The notes under the pieces: generated by a model
The model's database searches: none
What the model was told of the DNA's origin: nothing
The model's input: the letters and a program-made list of their open reading frames with translations, nothing else
Translations under genes and position numbers: made by a program
Assembly: GCA_947363605.1 (NCBI GenBank)
Contig: CANAQK010000008.1
Location: 1-49,388 of the forward strand
DNA: 49,388 bases
Origin: an uncultured Clostridia bacterium
Lineage (GTDB): Bacteria; Bacillota; Clostridia; Oscillospirales; Ruminococcaceae
Direction of reading: 5' to 3'
Part shown: one piece after another, positions 5,123 through 49,388 of the stretch
How the letters are laid out: each line of letters starts with the position of its first letter
Position numbering within the stretch: the stretch's first letter is position 1

Positions 5123-7120
5123 ATGGCAAAAAAGGCAGCGAACGATTATGGAAATGATAGTATTTCCTCCCTGAAGGGTGCGGACCGGGTCCGCCGCCGT
5201 CCTGCTGTCATTTTCGGATCGGACGGGCTGGAGGGGTGCGAGCATTCCGCCTTCGAAATCCTTTCAAACTCGATTGATGAGGCCCGGCAGGGCTGCGGCA
5301 ACCGGATTATCGTTACCCGCTATGCCGATTGTTCGATTGAGGTGCAGGATTTCGGACGGGGCTGCCCGGTGGACTGGAATGAAAGCGAGCAGCGGTATAA
5401 CTGGGAGCTGGTTTACTGTGAGCTGTACGCCGGCGGGAAATACAATACCAACGAAGGGGAAAGCTACGAATATTCCCTGGGCCTGAACGGGCTGGGTGCC
5501 TGTGCAACCCAGTATTCCTCAGAATATATGGATGTGGAGGTCTTTCGGGACGGCTTCCAGTATAACCTGCATTTTGAAAAGGGAGAGTTGGTCGGGGAGT
5601 TCCAGAAAAAACCGGCCTCCCGCAAAGCAACAGGGTCCCGGCACCGCTGGCGTCCGGATCTGGAGGTCTTTACAGATATTGCGATTCCGGCGGAGTGGTT
5701 TGAGGATATGATCAAACGCCAGGCGATTGTCAACCAGGGGCTGGTCTTTGAATTCCGGAACGAAACCGAGGAGGGCATGGTCACCAAGGAATTCGTTTAT
5801 ACAAATGGGATTGCCGACTATGTCCGGGAGCTGGCCGGGGATACGGCGATGACGACCCCCCAGCTTTGGGAAACAGAGCGCCGGGGGCGTGACCGGGAGG
5901 ATAAGCCGGAGTACAAGGTCAAGCTGGCCTGTGCATTGGTTTTTTCCAATCGGGTTCGGCTGCTGGAGTATTATCATAATTCCAGCTGGCTGGAATATGG
6001 CGGCGTCCCGGATAAAGCCGTCCGGCAGGCGTTTGTTTCCCAATTGGACGCTTATTTGAAACAGAACGGAAAATATTTGAAGGGTGAAGGCAAGATCAAT
6101 TTTACAGATGTGGAGGACTGTCTGATCCTGGTTTCCTCCTCCTTCTCTACCCAGACCTCCTATGAAAACCAGACCAAGAAGTCCATCAACAATAAATTTA
6201 TTTATGAAGCCATGACGGAATTCCTCAAGCATCAGCTCGAGGTGTATTTCCTGGAAAACCCGGATGAGGCGGCGCGGATTGCCGAACAGGTGCTGGTCAA
6301 TAAGCGTTCCCGCGAGAATGCGGAGAAAACCCGGCTCAACCTGAAAAAGAAGCTGGCCGGGACCCTTGATATATCCAACCGGGTGCAGAAGTTTGTGGAC
6401 TGCCGCACGAAGGATCTTTCCCGGCGGGAGGTCTATATCGTGGAGGGGGATTCGGCGCTCGGCTCCTGCAAGCAGGGCCGCGACGCGGAGTTCCAGGCGA
6501 TTATCCCGCTCCGCGGGAAGATTTTGAACTGCCTGAAAGCGGAATACGGGAAAATCTTCAAGAATGAGATTATCACCGATCTGATTAAGGTCCTGGGCTG
6601 CGGGGTAGAGGTCAACGCCAAGGCGAACCGGGAGCTTTCCAGCTTTGATCTGTCCGGGCTGCGCTGGAGCAAGGTCATTATCTGTACGGATGCCGATGTG
6701 GACGGGTTCCATATCCGCACCCAGGTGCTGACCATGCTCTACCGGCTGACCCCAACCCTGATTGAGCAGGGATATGTGTATATCGCGGAGTCCCCGTTGT
6801 TCGAGATTACGGTGAAGGAAAAGTCCGGCGAAAAGACTTATTTTGCCTATACCGAACAGGAAAAAGCAGAAATTCTGAAAAAAATCGATGGGAAAAAATA
6901 CACGATCCAGCGCTCCAAGGGTCTGGGCGAAAACGAAGCAGACATGATGTGGCTGACAACCATGAACCCTGAAACCCGCCGGCTGATCAAGGTTACGCCG
7001 GAAGGCGCGGAGGAAACCTCCCGGATGTTCGACCTGCTGCTGGGGGACAACCTTCAGGGCCGGAAGGACTTTATTGCGGACAACGGGCAGGCTTACCTGG
7101 AGCTGGCAGATATTTCCTGA
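5123..7120 (+). CDS. parE: Type IIA DNA topoisomerase subunit B (ParE/GyrB-like)
   Basis: This 665-aa protein is the ATPase/TOPRIM subunit of a type IIA topoisomerase, which passes one duplex through another and would act with the ParC-like product downstream. The N-terminal GHKL ATPase has EILSNSIDEA (N box), DFGRGCPVD (G1) and LGLNGLGACATQYSS (G2); G2 is divergent from the usual GLHGVGAS form. The TOPRIM domain has YIVEGDSALGS, IPLRGKILN and CTDADVDGFHIRTQ, and the C-terminal region has the family block RSKGLGENEADMM. Length matches ParE (about 640-670). ATG 5117 and ATG 5123 are in frame; AAAGGAAAGG upstream fits both, and MAKK at 5123 is the commoner family start. The divergent motifs suggest a clostridial paralogue rather than the dnaA-linked gyrase. 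A divergent R1 repeat begins one base after the stop codon. Confidence 0.9.
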   Translation: MAKKAANDYGNDSISSLKGADRVRRRPAVIFGSDGLEGCEHSAFEILSNSIDEARQGCGNRIIVTRYADCSIEVQDFGRGCPVDWNESEQRYNWELVYCELYAGGKYNTNEGESYEYSLGLNGLGACATQYSSEYMDVEVFRDGFQYNLHFEKGELVGEFQKKPASRKATGSRHRWRPDLEVFTDIAIPAEWFEDMIKRQAIVNQGLVFEFRNETEEGMVTKEFVYTNGIADYVRELAGDTAMTTPQLWETERRGRDREDKPEYKVKLACALVFSNRVRLLEYYHNSSWLEYGGVPDKAVRQAFVSQLDAYLKQNGKYLKGEGKINFTDVEDCLILVSSSFSTQTSYENQTKKSINNKFIYEAMTEFLKHQLEVYFLENPDEAARIAEQVLVNKRSRENAEKTRLNLKKKLAGTLDISNRVQKFVDCRTKDLSRREVYIVEGDSALGSCKQGRDAEFQAIIPLRGKILNCLKAEYGKIFKNEIITDLIKVLGCGVEVNAKANRELSSFDLSGLRWSKVIICTDADVDGFHIRTQVLTMLYRLTPTLIEQGYVYIAESPLFEITVKEKSGEKTYFAYTEQEKAEILKKIDGKKYTIQRSKGLGENEADMMWLTTMNPETRRLIKVTPEGAEETSRMFDLLLGDNLQGRKDFIADNGQAYLELADIS

Positions 7121-7121
7121 T

Positions 7122-7268
7122 CTAGTCAGATCACTTAAAAAACAGTAAAGCTGTTTTTCAGGCGGGCAAAGACCTCCGGCGTGTCAAACACGCCGGATTT
7201 GCCTATGAAATCCAAACCGAGACCGTTTGAAAAGGATCAAAACCTCTTTTCAAGCTGTTTGATGATAG
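7122..7268 (+). repeat. Divergent R1-like element between the parE and parC homologues
   Basis: This 147-bp stretch aligns with the R1 family at both ends. The left end CTAGTCAGATCACTTAAAAA matches TATAGTCGGCACACTTGAAA. The right end TTTTCAAGCTGTTTGATGAT matches TTTTCAAGCGCGTTGACTAT. Inside are three hairpins: AAAAACAG/CTGTTTTT, CCGGCGTGT/ACACGCCGG (7176-7196) extended by GGCAAA/TTTGCC, and TTGAAAAG/CTTTTCAA (7227-7253). It begins one base after the parE stop and ends at the parC ribosome binding site. Confidence 0.7.
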
Positions 7269-9986: not shown

Positions 9987-11201
9987 ATGCCAAAATACAA
10001 TAAAGTCGTACTTGCTTATTCCGGAGGGCTGGATACGTCGATTATTATTCCGTGGCTGAAGGAGAATTATGGCTGCGAAGTCATTGCGGTTTCCGGCAAT
10101 GTGGGACAGGCCGACGAGCTGGAGGGCCTGGAAGAAAAGGCGATCAAAACGGGTGCATCCAAAATTTATATTGAGGATCTCCAGGACGAATTTGTAGAGG
10201 ATTATATCTTCCCGACCCTGAAAGCCGGCGCGGTTTACGAAAATAAATACCTGCTGGGTACTTCCTTTGCGCGCCCGGTTATCGCTAAACGGATGGTTGA
10301 AATTGCCAAAGCGGAGGGCGCGGACGCCATCTGCCATGGCTGCACCGGCAAGGGGAATGACCAGGTCCGTTTTGAGCTGGCAATCAAGGCCTTCGCACCC
10401 AATATGCCGATCATCGCGCCCTGGCGGATTTGGGATATCAAGTCCCGTGAAGAGGAGATCGAATATGCAGAGCAGCATCAGATCCCGCTGAAAATCAATC
10501 GTGAAACCAACTATTCCAAAGATAAAAACCTCTGGCACCTGTCCCATGAGGGGTTGGATCTGGAAGATCCGTCCAATGAGCCCAAATATCGGGAAATCCT
10601 GGAAATGGGGGTTTCTCCGGAGGAAGCACCGGACAAACCGGTCTATATCACCCTGTCCTTTGAAAAAGGCATCCCGGTTGCGCTGAACGGCGAGAAAATG
10701 AAAGGTGCGGACATAATCAAAGCGCTGAACCAGATCGGCGGCGCCAACGGGATAGGCCTGACAGACTTGGTGGAGAACCGTTTGGTTGGCATGAAATCCC
10801 GGGGCGTGTATGAAACGCCAGGCGGCACCATCCTCTACCACGCGCATGAAGTGCTCGAGAGCATCTGCCTGGACAAGGCCACCCAGCATTACAAACAGCA
10901 GGTTGCCCTGAAATTTGCCGACCTGGTTTACGATGGCCAGTGGTATACCCCGCTGCGGGAGGCACTGTCTGCTTTTGTGGACCAAACCCAGGAAACTGTT
11001 ACGGGCGAGGTCAAACTGAAGCTCTATAAGGGGAACCTGATCAACGCAGGTGTTACCTCGCCGTATTCGCTTTACAGCGAGGAGATTGCGACCTTCGGTG
11101 AGGACGATGTCTACGACCAGACGGATTCCGCCGGCTTTATCAACCTGTTCGGCCTGCCGATTAAGGTCAAAGCGCTGCTCAACGAAAAGAAAATCAAGTA
11201 A
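9987..11201 (+). CDS. argG: Argininosuccinate synthase
   Basis: ArgG joins citrulline and aspartate with ATP to make argininosuccinate, the penultimate step of arginine synthesis, in the cytoplasm. The 404-aa protein has the ATP-pyrophosphatase P-loop [10 protein letters not shown] at residues 8-17, and the family segments [16 protein letters not shown] and APWR. Length is typical. Start ATG 9987 (MPKYNKVV) follows TAGGAGGATT; upstream in-frame codons lack a ribosome site. argH follows after 413 bp filled with R3 and R4 repeats and has its own promoter-like sequence, so the two may be separately transcribed. The stop codon TAA is also the first three bases of R3 copy 1. Confidence 0.98.
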
Positions 11202-11313
11202 TACGATTTCTTGATAAAAAGATAAAAATCTTTTTATCGCGGCGTATCACGCCGCCATGCCGCATTCTGCGGCCCAATAAAACGGCGGCATCGCTTTATT
11301 GAGAATTCGTATA
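11199..11313. repeat. R3 palindromic element, copy 1 (long form)
   Basis: This 115-bp element starts with TAATACGATTTCTTGATAAA and ends with TTTATTGAGAATTCGTATAA. The middle holds hairpins GATAAAAAGAT/ATCTTTTTATC (11213-11238), GCGGCG/CGCCGC and GCCGC/GCGGC. The two ends are the reverse complement of the two halves of R3 copy 2 (20651-20708), which lacks the GC-rich centre. Its first three bases are the argG stop codon. Confidence 0.75.
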
Positions 11314-16598: not shown

Positions 16599-16630
16599 GG
16601 GTTCATATTCTTTTGAATGGAGGAATTGTC

Positions 16631-16981
16631 ATGCAAGTGGTATTTCTGGTATTGAATAAGGTGGAATGCCTGGAAGAACTGCTGGTCGATCTGGCGGACG
16701 CCGGGGTAAAAGGCGGGACTATCATTGAGAGTACAGGGATGGCGAAAGTGCTGGGGGATTCGGAGGATCTGCACGTATTCGGCAGGCTTCGGATGCTGTT
16801 TGACCCTGCACGGGTAGCCAGCAAAACCCTTTTCTTTGTATTGGAAGATGAACAGGTGGAAACCGTGCGCGCCGTAATCAACGGGGTTTTGGGTGGGCTG
16901 GATCAGCCGAACACCGGGATTCTGTTCGGGATGCCTGTTTCGTTTGTAGAAGGCATGGGGCATTATAGTCAACACGCTTGA
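16631..16981 (+). CDS. PII-like (GlnB superfamily) signalling protein
   Basis: This 116-aa protein has the beta-alpha-beta ferredoxin-like layout of PII-like proteins: MQVVFLVLNKVECLEELL opens the first strand and helix, GTIIESTGMAKVL the second strand, and a final strand and loop read NTGILFGMPVSFVEGM. It lacks the T-loop tyrosine motif of true GlnB, so uridylylation is unlikely. Ligand and partner are unknown. Start ATG 16631 follows GGAGGA. The last five codons, encoding YSQHA, and the TGA stop lie inside R1 copy B, which begins at 16964 exactly on a codon boundary; homologues I recall end near VEG(L/M). The position after the hydrogenase may be coincidental because it has its own promoter. 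Confidence 0.78.
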   Translation: MQVVFLVLNKVECLEELLVDLADAGVKGGTIIESTGMAKVLGDSEDLHVFGRLRMLFDPARVASKTLFFVLEDEQVETVRAVINGVLGGLDQPNTGILFGMPVSFVEGMGHYSQHA

Positions 16982-17144
16982 AAAGAAGCATTGGCTTCTT
17001 TTCAACACTGCGGCATAATGCCGCAGTGGGCCGCGAAGCGGCCATGCGGTAGTGCTTCATAGACGGCGCACCGCGCATTTTATGCGCGGACAGGCAAAGC
17101 CTGACCCTCAAAGCGGGCACCGATTTGAGGGTGTGCCGACTATA
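16964..17144 (-). repeat. R1 element, copy B (complete, 181 bp)
   Basis: This is a complete R1 copy, inverted relative to copies A, C and D. It runs from TATAGTCAACACGCTTGA to GTGTGCCGACTATA. It contains the 12-bp hairpin TTGAAAAGAAGC/GCTTCTTTTCAA, GCGGCAT/ATGCCGC, GGCCGC/GCGGCC, CCGCGCAT/ATGCGCGG, CAGGC/GCCTG and CCCTCAAA/TTTGAGGG, so nearly every base is in a stem. It provides the stop codon of the PII-like gene and fills the gap up to the antiporter gene. Confidence 0.93.
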
Positions 17145-20650: not shown

Positions 20651-20708
20651 CTTATACGAATTCTCAATAAAACGATTTTAATCTTTTTATCAAGAAACAG
20701 TATTATAG
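20651..20708. repeat. R3 palindromic element, copy 2 (short form)
   Basis: CTTATACGAATTCTCAATAA on the left and CAAGAAACAGTATTATAG on the right flank the core CGATTTTAATCTTTTTAT. It equals the two ends of R3 copy 1 in reverse orientation without the GC-rich centre. It stops at the ribosome binding site of the FAD oxidoreductase gene. Confidence 0.75.
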
Positions 20709-20718
20709 AGGTGATAGG

Positions 20719-23599: not shown

Positions 23600-24096
23600 A
23601 GCGCCCGAGCTGTCGGGACGTTCCTCCGGCGATGATTTGCGGGGTTGCGCCCCCGTTGCCCTATCGATTGTGGGGCTCTGCGCCCCGCGCCCCGCCCCAT
23701 TTCTTTGGACGCCCAAAGAAATGGGGGAAAGAAATGCGCCAAGGGAGTCCCCTTGGATCCCCGATCAGCGTAGGAGACCGGGTTGCAGGCCGTAGAAGCC
23801 TTTACTTCTGGGGCGTCACAGAAGGTAAGCTTAGGAGCTGTCACGCTCACAGGCCAGTCCAGCGGAGCACAAACTGTAAAATAGACAATGCTCCCCTCAG
23901 GATGGAACCATAGGAGATTTGCACGGGAACAATTCTGCATTCAGTCAGCCTGGGGTAAAAGTGTCCAAGGGGACTAGGGGCGGCCTCCTCCCAGCGATTT
24001 TCTTTTGTCATCTTTTCTTTGAGCGTTCAAAGAAAAGGTGTTGCCCGATGCGGGGTCTTGTCCCCGAAGGGGGCGGCCTGAGCCTCGTATCCGGAT
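23600..24096 (+). repeat. R2 element, copy 2 (longest copy)
   Basis: Bases 23667-24096 align with R2 copy 1 throughout. The upstream part 23600-23666 (CCCGA/TCGGG hairpin and GGGACGTTC) matches the beginning of copy 3 instead, so the full element may be about 500 bp. The stem CCCATTTCTTT / AAAGAAATGGG differs from copy 1 on both sides and stays paired. No ORF of substance. It fills the gap between the MATE gene and the next operon. Confidence 0.85.
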
Positions 24097-24167: not shown

Positions 24168-24253
24168 TCCTTTATAGTCGGAATACTTCAAACGGAACCG
24201 ACCGGTTTTGTTGAAGCCTGCGGACTTTATCACAATATAAAGGGGCTAGTTTA

Positions 24254-28789: not shown

Positions 28790-28997
28790 AGCGCCCCCGC
28801 CCCCAAGCGGGTGGGACGTTCTTTCGGCGGGGACGGCCCGGCTGCAGGGAAGCCGTCCTGCTGTTCATCGTGTGGGGGTTCCAGGGGGATCTCCCCTTGG
28901 GCGGTTTTGTTTTTCCTTCTTTTCTTTGAATGATCAAAGAAAAGAAGATGCCCTGCGCGGGACGTCATAAGCCTCGCATTCAGATCGCGGCCCCGCA
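28790..28997 (+). repeat. R2 element, copy 3 (internally deleted)
   Basis: The first part (CCCGC/GCGGG hairpin and GGGACGTTC) matches the beginning of copy 2. The last part (GGGATCTCCCC, then CTTCTTTTCTTTGA / TCAAAGAAAAGAAG, then AAGCCTCGCATTCAGAT) matches the end of copies 1 and 2. The middle 250-300 bp are missing. The final stem again differs from other copies with pairing kept. Bases 28998-29120, after it, show no gene or repeat. Confidence 0.75.
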
Positions 28998-29216: not shown

Positions 29217-29397
29217 TATAGTCGGCACACCCTCAAATCGGTGCCCGCTTTGAGGGTCAGGCTTTGCCTGTCCGCACATAAAATGCGCTGTGCGCCGTCT
29301 ATGAAGCACTACCGCATGGCCGCTTCGCGGCCCACTGCGGCATTATGCCGCGGTGTTGAAAAGAAGCATTGGCTTCTTTTCAAGCGCGTTGACTATA
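29217..29397 (+). repeat. R1 element, copy C (complete, 181 bp)
   Basis: This complete R1 copy has the same length as copy B. It runs from TATAGTCGGCACACC to GCGCGTTGACTATA. Stems are CCCTCAAA/TTTGAGGG, CAGGC/GCCTG, CGCACA/TGTGCG, GGCCGC/GCGGCC, GCGGCAT/ATGCCGC and TTGAAAAGAAGC/GCTTCTTTTCAA. The loop of the last stem is ATTG, the inverse of the CAAT in copies A and B read in this orientation. It supplies the last five codons and stop of the minus-strand mannosidase. Confidence 0.95.
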
Positions 29398-35045: not shown

Positions 35046-36572
35046 ATGAAAGGTAAAGCAAAAGTTTTATCTCTTCTGTTGGCTCTCGCAATGACAGCGT
35101 CTGTTTTTGCTGCCTGCGGTGATAACGGCGGCAGCCCCTCGTCCAACAATGGCGGCGCTGTAAGCAACACTGGAGATGACAAACCAAACAACAGCGGAGA
35201 AGTTGTAGAACTGACCTGGTGGCACTGGGGCGAAGCTTCGAAAAACCCGGATGCAGCTATCGCGGCTCTGAATGAGAAATCGGCAAAGGATATCGGGGTT
35301 AAGATCAAATTCCTTTATTCCGGTACTGACGATACCAAACAGAAAACAGCGATGTCTACCGGCGCGTCTGACGATATCGTGTTCACCTGTTCTTGGTGGG
35401 CGCACTATCCGACCGTTGCTCAGCAGGGCCAGCTGTATGATATCACCGATATGCTGCCGACCGAAACCCCGGATCTGTGGAAGTTCCTGCCGGAATATAT
35501 GTGGAAGGGTGCTGAGGTCAACGGCCGCATCTATGCAGTTCCGACCTACAAAGACTCTGCTGCTTCTCAGTTCTGGAGCTGTAACAAAGACTTCGTTATC
35601 GACGCTGCTGGCGCTGAAGCTGAGTTCAAAGCAACCGGCATGAAGGTTGCTACCGTTACTCCTCTGCTGCAGAAAGTAAAAGCTTATGCAGACGCAAACG
35701 GCGGTACTTATCCGCATGACATGACCGCTCCGTTCAACTACAACAAAGCAGGTCTGAACGGCCACGGCGTATGGTTCAACCCGATCCTGGATACACACAG
35801 AATCGGCGTTCGTAACGATGACAGCAATTACAAAGTTGTCAGCTACTTTGAGGATGCAGACTACGTAGCAGACCTCAAGACTTTGGCTGAATGGTACAAA
35901 GAAGGTCTGGTAAACCAGGACTGCGGCCAGCTCGATAAAGAGCCGGAGTGGCTCGTTGTTGGTACCGGCCAAGGCTGGGAAGGCGTTGAGGACTCCAACT
36001 GGGGCGTTAACAAGGACTACAAAGTTGCGATCAACAGAAGATGCGGTCCGTACGCAAACACCTCTACCATTATCGGTTCGATGCAGGGTATCCTTGCAAA
36101 CTCTAAGCATGTAAAAGAATCCCTGAAGTACATTGAATACATGAACACCAATGCGGAATACCGCAATATGCTGGCTTACGGCGCTGAGGGTGTAAACTGG
36201 AAAGATAACGGCGACGGCACCATCAGCAAGCTGAACGACGACTACGGCCCTGGCGCATTCTCGCAGGCTACCTTCTTCCTGCTGAAACCGGTTTCCCCGG
36301 CTCCGGCAGATATGTACACTGCAATGCAGGTTGAGATGGACAAAGCTGAGCTCTCCGAGCTGCTGGGCTTCCTGCTGAACCAGGATGACATCCAGACCGA
36401 AGTTGCTGCAACCTCTACTGTATTCGAGAAATACACCAACGGTCTGCAGTGCGGTACCTACGCGGATGTTGACGCTACCATCGCTGAGATGATGAAAGAG
36501 CTCGAAGCTACCGGTTACCGGAAGATCATTGAGACTGCACAGGCTCAGGTTGACGCGTTCCTCGGCAAATAA
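35046..36572 (+). CDS. Sugar-binding lipoprotein of the ABC importer (SBP1)
   Basis: This 508-aa extracellular solute-binding protein is anchored as a lipoprotein. MKGKAKVLSLLLALAMTASV leads to the lipobox FAAC (cleavage before Cys24), followed by a Gly/Ser/Asn-rich linker. The mature part has family-1-like binding-protein features: LTWWHWGE, VNGRIYAVPTYKD, NMLAYGAEGVNWKDNGDG and a C-terminal region with a conserved TFFLLKPV. It is closely related to the two other binding proteins at 36723 and 44613. ATG 35046 follows AGGAGGATTTTTGTT. It is preceded by a processing-type hairpin and followed by a strong terminator. Ligand is inferred as mannose-containing glycan from the divergent GH38 gene. 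Confidence 0.93.
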   Translation: MKGKAKVLSLLLALAMTASVFAACGDNGGSPSSNNGGAVSNTGDDKPNNSGEVVELTWWHWGEASKNPDAAIAALNEKSAKDIGVKIKFLYSGTDDTKQKTAMSTGASDDIVFTCSWWAHYPTVAQQGQLYDITDMLPTETPDLWKFLPEYMWKGAEVNGRIYAVPTYKDSAASQFWSCNKDFVIDAAGAEAEFKATGMKVATVTPLLQKVKAYADANGGTYPHDMTAPFNYNKAGLNGHGVWFNPILDTHRIGVRNDDSNYKVVSYFEDADYVADLKTLAEWYKEGLVNQDCGQLDKEPEWLVVGTGQGWEGVEDSNWGVNKDYKVAINRRCGPYANTSTIIGSMQGILANSKHVKESLKYIEYMNTNAEYRNMLAYGAEGVNWKDNGDGTISKLNDDYGPGAFSQATFFLLKPVSPAPADMYTAMQVEMDKAELSELLGFLLNQDDIQTEVAATSTVFEKYTNGLQCGTYADVDATIAEMMKELEATGYRKIIETAQAQVDAFLGK

Positions 36573-36722: not shown

Positions 36723-38259
36723 ATGAAAGGTAAAGCAAAAATACTCTCTCTTATTGGCGCTTGCGATGAGCGCCTCGGTTTTTGCTGCCTGCGGCGATAA
36801 CGGCGGCGGGAGCAGCACGCCGAGCAACAGCAGCGGATCGGACTCCAGCAAAGTGCAGACCGACAATCAAGAACCGGACGGCAACGGCGATGTTGTGAAT
36901 TTGGTTTGGTGGCATTATGGCGAACAGCCCAAAAACCTGGATAGAGCCATCGCGGCATTGAACGAGAAATCGGCGAAAGACATTGGTATTACCATCACTT
37001 TCAACTATGCCGGCGACGGTACACAGCAGAAGGTTGCCATGCAGACCGGTGCAACAGACGATATCCTGTTCACCTGCGCATGGTATGTAAACTATGCGAC
37101 GGCTGCACAGCAAGGCCAGCTGTATGATATTACGGACAAGGTGCAAAACGATACTCCGGAGCTTTGGAATTATATCCCGGATTACGTTTGGAAAGGTTCG
37201 GAGATCAACGGCCGGATTTACGCAGTTCCAACTTATAAAGACGTTGCGGCTTCCCAGTTCTGGACCTGCAACAAGGACTTTGTTTTTGACACAGCAGACG
37301 CTGAGGCGGAATTCAAGGCAACCGGGATGAAATTCTCCACGGTTACCCCGCTGCTCGAGAAGCTGAAAAACTACGCCGATACCAACCTGGGCGGCAAATA
37401 TCCAAACGACCTGACGGCTCCTTATTATATGAATAAGGGCGGCATCATTGGCGCAGATATGTGGTTCAATGCGGTTTTGGACTCGCTCCATATCGGCATC
37501 AAACAGGGCGACAGCAGCAACAAGGTTGTCAGCTACTTTGACGATGCAGACTACATCGAGGACCTGAAAACCCTTTCCGAGTGGCATAAGGCCGGCTATA
37601 TCAACGCCGACTGTATGCAGATTGACCGTGAACCGGAGTTTATGGTTGTCGGCAGCAGTAAGGTTTGGGAAGGCGGCGAGGCAAACCTCGAAGCAGGCAA
37701 GAACTATAAAGTGGCGATCAACAGAAGATGCGGCCCGTACGCAACCACTTCTTTTGTCACCGGCTCGATGAACGGGATCTTCGCAAACTCGAAGCATCCG
37801 GATGAATCGCTGCAATATTTGCAGTACATTAATACGAATGCAGAGTACCGGAATATGCTGGCCTACGGCGTAGAAGGGGAAAACTGGAAGGACAACGGCG
37901 ACGGCACCGTGACCAAGCTGAATTCGGACTATGAGCCGTATGCGTTCGCGCAGGCAACCTTCTTCCTGCTGAAACCGGTTGCGCCGGCAGCGGCGGATAT
38001 GTACACTACCATGAAAGCAGAGATGGAAAAGGCAGAGCTTTCTGACTTGCTGGGCTTTACCCTGAATCAGGATAGTATCCAAACCGAAGTTGCGGCTTGT
38101 ACCACCGTCTTTGAAAAATACATGAGCAGTTTCATGACCGGTTCGTTTGCGGATGTAGACGCTTCTGTCGCAGAGATGATCAAAGAGCTGGAAGTAGTTG
38201 GCTACCGCAGAGTTATTGAAGAAGCACAGACCCAAGTGGATGCGTTTCTTGGAGAATAA
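36723..38259 (+). CDS. Sugar-binding lipoprotein SBP2, frameshifted in the signal peptide
   Basis: This gene encodes a paralogue of SBP1 with the same domain features (LVWWHYGE, VNGRIYAVPTYKD-like INGRIYAVPTYKD, NMLAYGVEGENWKDNGDG, TFFLLKPVAP). Translation from ATG 36720/36723 after GGAGGAATC reads MKGKAKILSLIGAC and stops after about 26 codons. Adding one CT unit to the CTCTCTCT tract at 36744-36751 restores MKGKAKILSLLLALAMSASV followed by FAAC, nearly identical to SBP1. The downstream frame is open from TTG 36754 to 38259 (501 codons) without other damage, but starting there would leave only a rump signal peptide. So the gene is off in this sequence, phase-variable, or misread by one dinucleotide. 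Terminator at 38274-38306. Confidence 0.85.
36744..36751 (+). repeat. CT dinucleotide tract (four units) at the SBP2 frameshift
   Basis: CTCTCTCT within codons 8-10 of SBP2. Five units put the signal peptide in frame with the mature protein; four units do not. Confidence 0.85.
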
Positions 38260-38345: not shown

Positions 38346-38385
38346 AAATCCAGAGTATAATCATTCGAAGAACCAACGGGGTTTA

Positions 38386-38433
38386 TACTAATTCTCGATA
38401 AAACGATTTTAATCTTTTTATCGAGAATTAGTA
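38386..38433. repeat. R3 palindromic element, copy 3
   Basis: TACTAATTCTCGATAAAA and its perfect inverse flank the core CGATTTTAATC. This 48-bp palindrome is the most symmetric R3 copy. It is followed by AGACTGTTTGAACAGG (about 38438-38453), a short hairpin sequence also found at 44243-44258. Confidence 0.8.
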
Positions 38434-38503
38434 TTACAGACTGTTTGAACAGGTTCCCGGCTGGGGAAGATTCGCTCGAAAACGGATAAAGGAGCTGTTT
38501 GTC

Positions 38504-44503: not shown

Positions 44504-44612
44504 ATGCCTATAAACAGAAAGAAAACTTTCCTAACAAAAGGAATCTGTTTATGCGGATCCATTTACACGCGTGAATGGAAAAACCATTTTATCAAGAGGG
44601 AGATTTGAGAAA

Positions 44613-46136
44613 ATGAAAAGGAAAATGAAGGTGTTATCACTTCTCGCAGCGGTCGCGATGACCACAGCGGCATTTGCCGGCTGTGGAGCCAACCCATCCG
44701 GTTCGCCCAGTTCCGGCGGCGGGACGCCGTCATCCAGCGGCAATTCCGGCCAAAAGGAAACCGTGGAGCTGACCTGGTGGCATTGGGGTGAATCCCCCAA
44801 AAATCCAGACGCTGTTATCCAAGCGCTGAACAAGAAATCCGCCGAGGATATCGGGGTTACCATCCGGTTCCTTTGGGCTACCGGGGAAGATACCAAACTG
44901 AAAACAGCGCTTTCTACCGGTGCGGAGGATGATATTGCGTTTACCTGTTCCTGGTTTGCTTATTATCCGACTACCGCGCAGAGCGGCCAGCTTTTGGATA
45001 TTACCGACAAGCTGCCTGAGCAGACTCCGGACCTGTGGAATTATATACCAGATTATGTTTGGCAGGGCTCAAGGGTCAACGGCCGTATTTATGCAGTCCC
45101 GACCTATAAAGACGTTGCGGCCGCTTCTTATTGGTACTGCAATAAAGAGTATGTTTTTGACCAGGCTGGTGCGGAAGCCGAATTTATGGCTCCGGGCGAG
45201 CGGAATGCAGTAAAAACCCCGCTGATGAAAAAGCTGTATGAATACGCGCAGCAGGGCAACCCCTACCCGCATGATCTGACCGCCCCATATGTCTATAATA
45301 ACCAAGGGCCGCGTACCGTATCCAACGGGTTTGAGGATGTCTTTGCGGACGCAGGCCTGGTGGTAGAGCTGGGCGACGATACCCATGAAGTAAAATTTAT
45401 GTACTCCACCGATAACTATATCGCCGACCTGCAAACCTTGGTTGAATGGTATAAAGCCGGTTATGTCAACCAGGACTGCGCGCAGCTGGAAAAAGAGCCG
45501 GAATTCTGCGTGGTCAACCAGGCGGCTGGCTGGAAAGGCGCCGAGGTCGCCGTATGGGGCCTGAACAAGGATTATACGGTCGCGATCTGCCAGCGGACAA
45601 AGCCTGTCGCTTCGACCAGCTCGGCAATCGGCTCAATGCAGGGGATTTTTGCGAACTCCAAGCATCCGGATGAAGCGCTGAAATTCATCGAATACATGAA
45701 CCTGAACGAATCCTACCGGAATATGCTGGGTTATGGCATCGAGGGAACCAACTGGAAGGATAACGGTGACGGTACTGTCACACGGCTGGGTTCGGACTGG
45801 GAGCCGGGTTTATTTTCACAGGCTACTTTCTTCACCCTGAAACCGGTGGCTCCGGCTCCGGCAACCATGTATACGGATATGAAAGCAGAAATGGATCAGG
45901 CCATTCAAACCGATCTGCTCGGCTTTGTATTCGATATGAGCAATGTAACCAATGAGGTAGCGGCTTGTTCGGCAGTGATCAACAAACATAAAACCACATT
46001 GGTCTGCGGCACAATGTCCGACGCAAGCAGCTATGTAGCAGATGTCCTCAATGAGCTGAAAACCTGCGGCTGGGATAAAATCCGGGATGAGGCGCAGAAA
46101 CAGGTGGATGAATTCCTGAAGAATAAGGCGTCTTAA
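44613..46136 (+). CDS. Orphan sugar-binding lipoprotein (SBP3)
   Basis: This 507-aa extracellular solute-binding lipoprotein is a paralogue of SBP1 and SBP2. Its signal peptide MKRKMKVLSLLAAVAMTTAA leads to lipobox FAGC (Cys about 24), then a Gly/Ser linker. Shared blocks are LTWWHWGE, VNGRIYAVPTYKDVAAA, GSMQGIFANSKHPDEALKFI, GTNWKDNGDG and FFTLKPVAPAP. No permease or ATPase gene is next to it, so it either feeds the importer at 33-35 kb or another one elsewhere. The start is ATG 44613 after GAGGGAGATTTGAG; a GTG at 44571 is open in frame but unlikely. It has its own promoter and terminator, so it is separately regulated. Ligand unknown. Confidence 0.92.
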   Translation: MKRKMKVLSLLAAVAMTTAAFAGCGANPSGSPSSGGGTPSSSGNSGQKETVELTWWHWGESPKNPDAVIQALNKKSAEDIGVTIRFLWATGEDTKLKTALSTGAEDDIAFTCSWFAYYPTTAQSGQLLDITDKLPEQTPDLWNYIPDYVWQGSRVNGRIYAVPTYKDVAAASYWYCNKEYVFDQAGAEAEFMAPGERNAVKTPLMKKLYEYAQQGNPYPHDLTAPYVYNNQGPRTVSNGFEDVFADAGLVVELGDDTHEVKFMYSTDNYIADLQTLVEWYKAGYVNQDCAQLEKEPEFCVVNQAAGWKGAEVAVWGLNKDYTVAICQRTKPVASTSSAIGSMQGIFANSKHPDEALKFIEYMNLNESYRNMLGYGIEGTNWKDNGDGTVTRLGSDWEPGLFSQATFFTLKPVAPAPATMYTDMKAEMDQAIQTDLLGFVFDMSNVTNEVAACSAVINKHKTTLVCGTMSDASSYVADVLNELKTCGWDKIRDEAQKQVDEFLKNKAS

Positions 46137-48927: not shown

Positions 48928-49293
48928 ATGCAGGAAAAACAAAACAGCCGGGGTTACCCGGCCTTTCTGGGCGGGATGGCGGTGACGCTGCTCCTGTCCT
49001 TACTGGTATCGGGGTGCCTGTTGGCATTGGTGCGGATGGAATCGACCATTGCGCCGGAGGACTACGTGCTCTTCCGGATGACAGCCGGGGAGGAGCAGGT
49101 GAACCTGGTCGCCTTTAACCAAGAGTATGAATGGGACCTGACACAGGCGGAGGGGTGGGATCTCCCGCTGAAACAGGTGGAACAGCTTTCCCCAGCCGGG
49201 GCCGGGGCTTTTCTGGGGGCGCTGGACTGGCTGACAGGACTGGCGGAGAGGGGTTACCGCCGGATTTTGAACGGATATAGTCGGCACACTTGA
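48928..49293 (+). CDS. Small membrane protein after spoIIP, ending in R1 repeat
   Basis: This 121-aa protein is unassigned. A basic stretch and one transmembrane helix (about 13-35 FLGGMAVTLLLSLLVSGCLLALV) are followed by a domain of about 80 residues with alternating strands (LFRMTAGEEQVNLVAFNQEYEWDL split around the Gly-Glu turn). The VSGC motif at 27-30 could be a lipobox, but it lies within the helix and the protein more likely spans the membrane. Position after gpr-spoIIP suggests a sporulation role by context only. ATG 48928 follows AAAAGGATGG. The last five codons (YSRHT) and TGA come from R1 copy D, which begins on a codon boundary at 49276, so the natural C-terminus may have been replaced. 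Confidence 0.72.
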   Translation: MQEKQNSRGYPAFLGGMAVTLLLSLLVSGCLLALVRMESTIAPEDYVLFRMTAGEEQVNLVAFNQEYEWDLTQAEGWDLPLKQVEQLSPAGAGAFLGALDWLTGLAERGYRRILNGYSRHT

Positions 49294-49388
49294 AAATCGG
49301 GCGCCGATTTTCAAGTCAGGCTTTGCCTGTTCACGCATAAAATGCGCTGTGCGCCGTCTATGAAGCCCTACCGCATGGCCGCTTCGCG
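49276..49388 (+). repeat. R1 element, copy D (left part, cut by window end)
   Basis: This is the left 113 bp of an R1 copy. It starts TATAGTCGGCACACTTGA. Its first hairpin CTTGAAAATCGG/CCGATTTTCAAG is a perfect 12-bp stem that differs in sequence from copies B and C while keeping the fold. CAGGC/GCCTG, CGCAT/ATGCG and GGCCGC follow. The window ends about 15 bp short of where copy A begins in the consensus. Confidence 0.93.

Follow-up and report, generated by a model that had tools for sequence, protein, structure and literature searches.

A small TA-inserting repeat supplies in-frame stop codons at gene ends in a Clostridia genome, very probably as a by-product of its target site

The window, the whole stretch of 49,388 nucleotides analysed here, comes from the draft genome of an uncultured Clostridia bacterium and carries copies of R1, a hairpin-rich repeat of about 181 bp with the ends TATAGTC…GACTATA (in fuller form TATAGTC(GG)CACAC... 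and ...GTGCG(TT)GACTATA). A PII-like gene, a mannosidase of family GH38 (profile match) and a gene downstream of spoIIP (itself identified by profile match) end inside such copies, and a divergent copy follows parE. The features are:

1 to 53, + strand: R1 right end, cut by the contig start
7121 to 7269, + strand: R1-like copy, old and divergent, directly after the TGA of parE; far end uncertain, by eye
16964 to 17144, - strand: R1 copy, 181 bp, in the TAG stop codon of gene 16613-16963, right end toward the gene; 96% complementary to 29217-29397
16964 to 16981, + strand: tail TAT AGT CAA CAC GCT TGA (YSQHA, stop) from R1, read from the sequence
29217 to 29397, + strand: R1 copy, 181 bp, interrupting the final sense codon (TAC) of the GH38 mannosidase, its right end toward the gene
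29380 to 29397, - strand: tail TAT AGT CAA CGC GCT TGA (YSQRA, stop) from R1, read from the sequence
49276 to 49388, + strand: R1 copy truncated by the contig end, with a TTGA-subtype left end
49276 to 49293, + strand: tail TAT AGT CGG CAC ACT TGA (YSRHT, stop) from R1, in gene 48928-49275 after spoIIP

The first-pass annotation had claimed that the element starts on a codon boundary and adds five residues and a TGA, and all four cases that it cited are present in the sequence. The PII-like gene ends CAT|TAT AGT CAA CAC GCT TGA (16961-16981, +), the mannosidase TCC|TAT AGT CAA CGC GCT TGA (29400-29380, -) and the gene after spoIIP GGA|TAT AGT CGG CAC ACT TGA (49273-49293, +), while in parE the stop TGA (7118-7120) is followed by TCT AGT CAG ATC ACT TAA at 7121-7138. 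The coding score of gene 48928-49275 is 35 in the frame of the tail and negative in the other five frames; its product matched no family in Pfam or NCBIfam. The same two collections returned no family for the PII-like protein, and no PDB sequence fell below E 0.3, so that the family name finds no support in these databases. The contigs of the draft often break inside R1 copies, and as positions 1 and 49388 of the window both lie within copies, R1 probably caused these assembly breaks.

Other repeats are interspersed in the window. These include a 57-bp R1-like palindrome (24173-24229), a dispersed hairpin repeat CTTTTCTTTGA...TCAAAGAAAAG (1825-1851, 24012-24038 and 28919-28948), and a second palindromic repeat family (TTATACGAATTCTCGATAAAACG...) at 20652-20709, 38383-38440 and 11199-11256, which was also seen at L020 and L052. 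Three paralogous genes (35046-36572, 36754-38259 and 44571-46136), 66-77% alike in long repeated segments, have lipoprotein-like starts (LALAMTASVFAACGDNGG in the gene at 35046-36572) and presumably encode solute-binding proteins.

In the draft assembly (2.22 Mb, 133 contigs, 94.9% completeness), the end pattern of R1 with at most 3 mismatches matched 252 times, against 4 times for a reversed control, and from the 115 right ends with flank we estimate the real number at about 120 copies. Ends were taken from 100 of 133 matches listed, from 80 of 82 planned stretches and from 30 further loci, amounting to 410 kb of the draft genome, window included. Within the stretches fetched, 96 copies could be paired, and the 85 retained were at least 100 bp long and had proper ends with 150 nt on either side; rows of 82-94 bp, most of which reflect internal mispairing, were left out, as were copies cut by a contig end, whose single ends were kept in a count of 219 ends. 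Genes were called by codon log-odds rather than taken from curated annotation. As in the short (under about 300 bp), multicopy MITEs of bacteria, copy length ranged from 124 to 195 bp (copies of at least 100 bp), and the terminal inverted repeats TATAGTC/GACTATA were found on both ends of 34 aligned copies, a few with single-base variants. R1 encodes no protein of its own; in 84/85 copies, a phase-0 frame that runs into the right end meets a stop within 5 residues. A very short derivative of 24 bp, with the left end joined straight to the right end, lies at C64:4606.

The distribution of R1 is narrow. Besides the genome studied here, it was found in one other, closely related species of the genus (genome G006), that is, in two of eight genomes of the genus and two of 31 genomes overall. 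Across the GTDB genome collection, from which our own genome may be excluded, the exact right end occurred only in one uncultured Clostridia MAG, in 17 stretches. A sister family of 193-195 bp (C5:13773-13965, C9:30077-30271, C20:6818-7010, C21:15248-15440 and C45:7091-7283) has the ends TATAGT(C/T)GAAACAC and, at the opposite side, TATA(G/A)TCAACACAC; it behaves as R1 does with respect to TA and phase 0, and once lies within the stop codon of an ABC-transporter-like gene.

The fixed frame noticed in the window extends to the genome. A gene was scored as entering an R1 end if a coding frame with codon log-odds of at least 15 ran into it, the ends considered being those flanked by 90 nt or more. 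Of the 219 ends, 20 were entered, 16 in phase 0 (NNN|TAT AGT), four in phase 1 (NTA|TAG) and none in phase 2; two of the phase-1 rows (C21:28231 and C39:4894) look antisense, as judged by eye from the peptides. All TAs within genes are distributed over the three phases as 3254:1867:4248, and the frame bias is therefore real (P 4e-5 against the codon phase of gene TAs, 2.5e-5 against one third), as the first-pass annotation had proposed. At the G006 loci, 4/34 ends were entered, all in phase 0, and two of these are common to both genomes. An earlier counting rule, applied to both genomes together, had given 23 entries (19 in phase 0, four in phase 1); it missed the gene after spoIIP, owing to a stronger gene ending within 400 nt, and was superseded.

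The target of R1 can be read from sites that are empty in G006, identified by joining the flanks of our copies with a single TA and searching the loci at hand (gene-targeted or R1-bearing). Among 11 empty sites judged single-locus, the TA was intact in nine and read CA in two. Occupied sites have TA on both sides and empty ones a single TA, which represents the target duplication of a MITE and shows that the inserted element itself is TAGTC...GACTA, placed within a TA. In the 67 intergenic copies, the base after the right-side TA was A in 53, G in 12, C in one and T in one, against a background of A 28, G 13, C 20 and T 39%; a purine occupies this position in 65/67 copies, so that R1 targets TA with a purine behind it, TAA being the most frequent form. 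Eight sites that fell within or close to other repeat families were excluded from this tally (C1:2633, C1:90982, C10:23555, C14:26908, C24:9328, C31:1705, C64:3407 and C65:729). R1 was also found inserted in at least two copies of the TTATACGAATTCTCGATAAAACG... family, at TGATAAAA, which yields more empty-site pairs.

Orthologues without R1 show where in a gene these TAs lay. Of the 20 genes entering R1 in our genome, 12 were queried for orthologues and all 20 were then compared with the loci obtained; gene names in this comparison are by eye unless a profile match is named. In five of ten unoccupied G006 orthologues, the gene stops exactly at the insertion TA: the PII-like gene (TAG; the empty site of the 16964-17144 copy reads CAT TAG, with one TA), C19 (TAA), C49 (TAG), C56:13589 (TAA, a Fur-like gene by eye) and C89 (TAG). 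In C21 the TAA is conserved, but the G006 gene stops three codons earlier. In the mannosidase, the empty site reads TCC TAC TGA and the protein ends in K(I/F/L)S-Tyr-stop in the six genus genomes shown, so the last codon (TAC, Tyr) was struck, and R1 restores the Tyr before adding its tail. In C25, beside a truncated R1, the last codon (Leu) was struck and R1 gives Leu and TAG, leaving the protein end unchanged. A rRNA methyltransferase-like gene (C14, by eye) lost 22 residues, the frame at C56:10310 differs in G006, and the proB-like gene (C13) carries R1 in both genomes. The proposal that R1 inserts at or next to stop codons and carries its own stop is thus borne out; the fixed frame is equally real, and is explained by the TA target, since TAA and TAG begin with TA.

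Clues to the origin of the R1 ends come from the transposons of related genomes. The transposase domain PF13358 (DDE_3) was found in one of the eight genus genomes, G002, where four IS630 copies at contig ends terminate in TATAGTCACCACAGGTGAAAAG beside the transposase C-terminus. These ends equal the R1 right end at 18/22 bases (the IS end beside DDE_3, one end being seen). G045, a genome of the same family, carries TATAGTCACCACAGTTGAAAAG, in 2/3 copies beside a related transposase piece; it equals the R1 right end at 19/22 bases, of which the search pattern itself had fixed 15. The IS ends read TAT AGT CAC CAC AG(G/T) TGA, in the same phase as R1 and with the TGA at the matching codon. Five other genomes matched the end pattern with no transposase match at the locus, and these matches are probably due to chance. 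In common with IS630/Tc1-mariner elements, R1 has a TA target and a shared terminal repeat, but no cognate transposase was detected in its genome: PF13358 was found neither there nor in G006, and the stretches fetched from our genome held no longer, autonomous element with R1 ends.

Based on these results, we consider it highly probable that R1 is a MITE of the IS630/Tc1-mariner kind, its frame being set by the TA target and filtered by selection and its stop being a by-product, even though both carriers lack a PF13358 transposase. R1 inserts in TA with a preference for a purine after the right-side TA. Where this TA opens a TAA or TAG stop codon, or a TAY codon just before the stop, the gene reads NNN|TAT AGT CAA CGC ACT TGA, its final five residues and its TGA being supplied by R1. 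A TA within an NTA codon gives NTA|TAG and an immediate stop. Insertions in the remaining phase or far inside genes would be lost by selection, making the survivors look frame-locked. The TGA lies within the terminal-repeat motif TTGAAAAG, which IS630 transposons of this genus and family also carry; as this motif is shared with the IS630 ends, the TGA is probably there for recognition by the transposase, and the stop would be a by-product that makes insertions nearly harmless. The selective filter is consistent with placement. Of the 85 copies, placed on the spliced sequence, 67 were intergenic, nine lay in stop TAs, four in the last ten codons and five deeper, several of which may reflect wrong gene starts. 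Coding sequence is depleted of R1 (9/85 copies vs 52% of target-weighted TAs, P 1e-15), in agreement with the suggestion that insertion elsewhere is selected against.

Target choice explains less well the difference between the two left ends of R1. Both ends of the element can supply a tail, as first noted in the window; for the left end this applies almost exclusively to the subtype TTGAAAA, which has an in-frame TGA and gives a tail of 5 in 24/24 copies. The subtype CCCTCAAA (CCCTC) is without such a TGA, and its median tail is 42 in 49 copies; the 85 copies comprise 49 CCCTC and 24 TTGA ends, or 53 and 24 once point variants of CCCTC are admitted. Genes of our genome enter 8/35 TTGA vs 1/65 CCCTC left ends (Fisher P 0.0008), one further TTGA-type end, at C56:13589 (labelled R by the script), falling outside the 8/35. 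In the sole CCCTC case (C5:37309), a T-to-A change has created a TAA at the first codon. TTGA left ends lie at stop codons in 6/23 copies vs 4.7% expected (P 0.0005), an excess beyond what target choice alone would give, and CCCTC copies in 1/46 (P 0.36 for a deficit), so that the signal is more an excess of TTGA at stops than a deficit of CCCTC. Because TTGA agrees with both the right end and the IS630 ends, it is perhaps the ancestral form, and age could therefore confound the contrast. A further reading, which we regard as possible but doubtful, is that in this IS630 lineage, ends that keep a TGA at the sixth codon of the sole frame available in TAA and TAG would make life in stop codons nearly cost-free, the CCCTC form being barred from this niche by its loss of the TGA.

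The same observations could be read in favour of R1 as a domesticated portable terminator, in which selection would keep copies at gene ends, where the TGA, with the hairpin right behind it, would stop translation and either shield or terminate the mRNA. The excess of TTGA left ends at stops would fit this, as would the single gene-facing copy of the TGA-less subtype having gained a TAA, and the two insertions kept in both species, in genes resembling proB and RNase H (by eye). The first hairpin also points both ways: the two left-end subtypes pair with different 3' arms, giving double changes in 10/34 copies, but in 5/34 aligned copies the arms are mixed and unpaired (four one way, one the other). 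Against a home at gene ends, the 67/85 intergenic copies lie in tandem (36), convergent (14) and divergent (12) gaps, with five assigned to no gap type, much as intergenic TA sites do (62, 23 and 15%). As these copies match TA availability, R1 has no general taste for gene ends, and a general preference for gene 3' ends, suspected from the window, is not supported. The 3'-end hairpin role suggested there found no support either, as a simple scan for Rho-independent terminators, with a G+C-rich stem-loop and a T run, detected no terminator-like site in the two complete window copies (16964-17144 and 29217-29397). Such domestication is thus improbable, and R1 is best read as not being a dedicated terminator. 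For promoter-like sites, the scan matched once in the 16964-17144 copy, at 16991-17019 on the + strand, with 0.3 matches expected across the region; the 29217-29397 copy had no such match. At Rfam gathering thresholds, only a tRNA was detected in the window and R1 matched no curated model, which rules it out as a known Rfam RNA.

Direct recognition of stop codons or gene ends by R1 or its transposase, going beyond TA and acting for example through termination or 3' mRNA structure, is very improbable, as stop matches (9/76 stop and intergenic copies) barely exceed the TA and flank expectation (5.2% unweighted, P 0.017; 6.3% flank-weighted, P 0.050), the small excess is missing in the most numerous left-end subtype (2/46 in this tally), and intergenic insertions share the TA-purine signature; recognition of the stop codon as such was therefore rejected.

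A TA-targeted MITE with a by-product stop offers a simple and testable reason why small TA-inserting repeats may supply stop codons, namely that two of the three stops are TA targets and that insertion there sets the frame. The left ends with and without an in-frame TGA constitute a natural experiment on the cost of C-terminal extensions, and if the cost-free life in stop codons considered above were true, the transposon would have been selected for having its end read by the ribosome. Annotators should take five-residue tails of the type YSQRA or YSRHT as belonging to the transposon and not as features of a protein family.

Repeats near gene ends are known from several bacteria; the MIRU elements of mycobacteria, for example, sit at stop/start overlaps. 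Repeats that supply stops are already published for pneumococcus (BOX) and Coxiella (QMITE). The term 'stop codon' is absent from the main text of a 2024 MITE review (PMC10969869, term search), and in the portions of the open-licence literature covered, no text was found in which a fixed frame is traced to the TA of a stop codon; one may exist elsewhere. As described in the relevant parts of PMC3049150, BOX of Streptococcus pneumoniae resembles R1 in supplying gene stops: 36 genes take their stop codon from a BOX at their very 3' end, with no strong evidence that they are truncated; unlike R1, it is modular, differs in sequence and in its proposed transposon (ISSpn2), and no TA-in-stop mechanism is described in those parts. 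QMITE1/2 of Coxiella burnetii are, like R1, MITEs at gene 3' ends: in the sections of PMC5896051 dealing with them, all functional annotated genes affected have the insertion at the 3' end, and two listed genes gain only a STOP. They differ from R1 in sequence, in the direct repeats of QMITE2, which vary per copy, and in the length of the extension, which may reach tens of residues, with 33 added in one instance (PMC5896051, same sections).

The review PMC2229807, as far as its relevant sections go, deals with MITEs that have TA ends, form structured RNA and make in-frame fusions. Correia/NEMIS and ERIC share TA ends and structured RNA with R1 (for ERIC/RU-1 see also the pertinent part of PMC2759123), but the frames fused to them stay open and are translated for tens of residues, whereas the right end and the TTGA left end of R1 allow no more than five residues before a stop in two of the three phases. 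The Rickettsia palindromic elements, in the account given in part of PMC2229807, are likewise small palindromic repeats lying in frame in genes; they are read through as part of the protein, whereas R1 ends the gene. RUP of S. pneumoniae, in the passages devoted to it in PMC2229807 and PMC3049150, has 107 bp, no protein and about 110 copies; it differs from R1 in sequence, and no fixed-frame stop is described for it in those passages. According to the same passages, RUP together with IS630-Spn1 resembles R1 in its TA ends, its TA target and its terminal repeats, which are similar to those of an IS630-family transposon (PMC2229807, PMC3049150).
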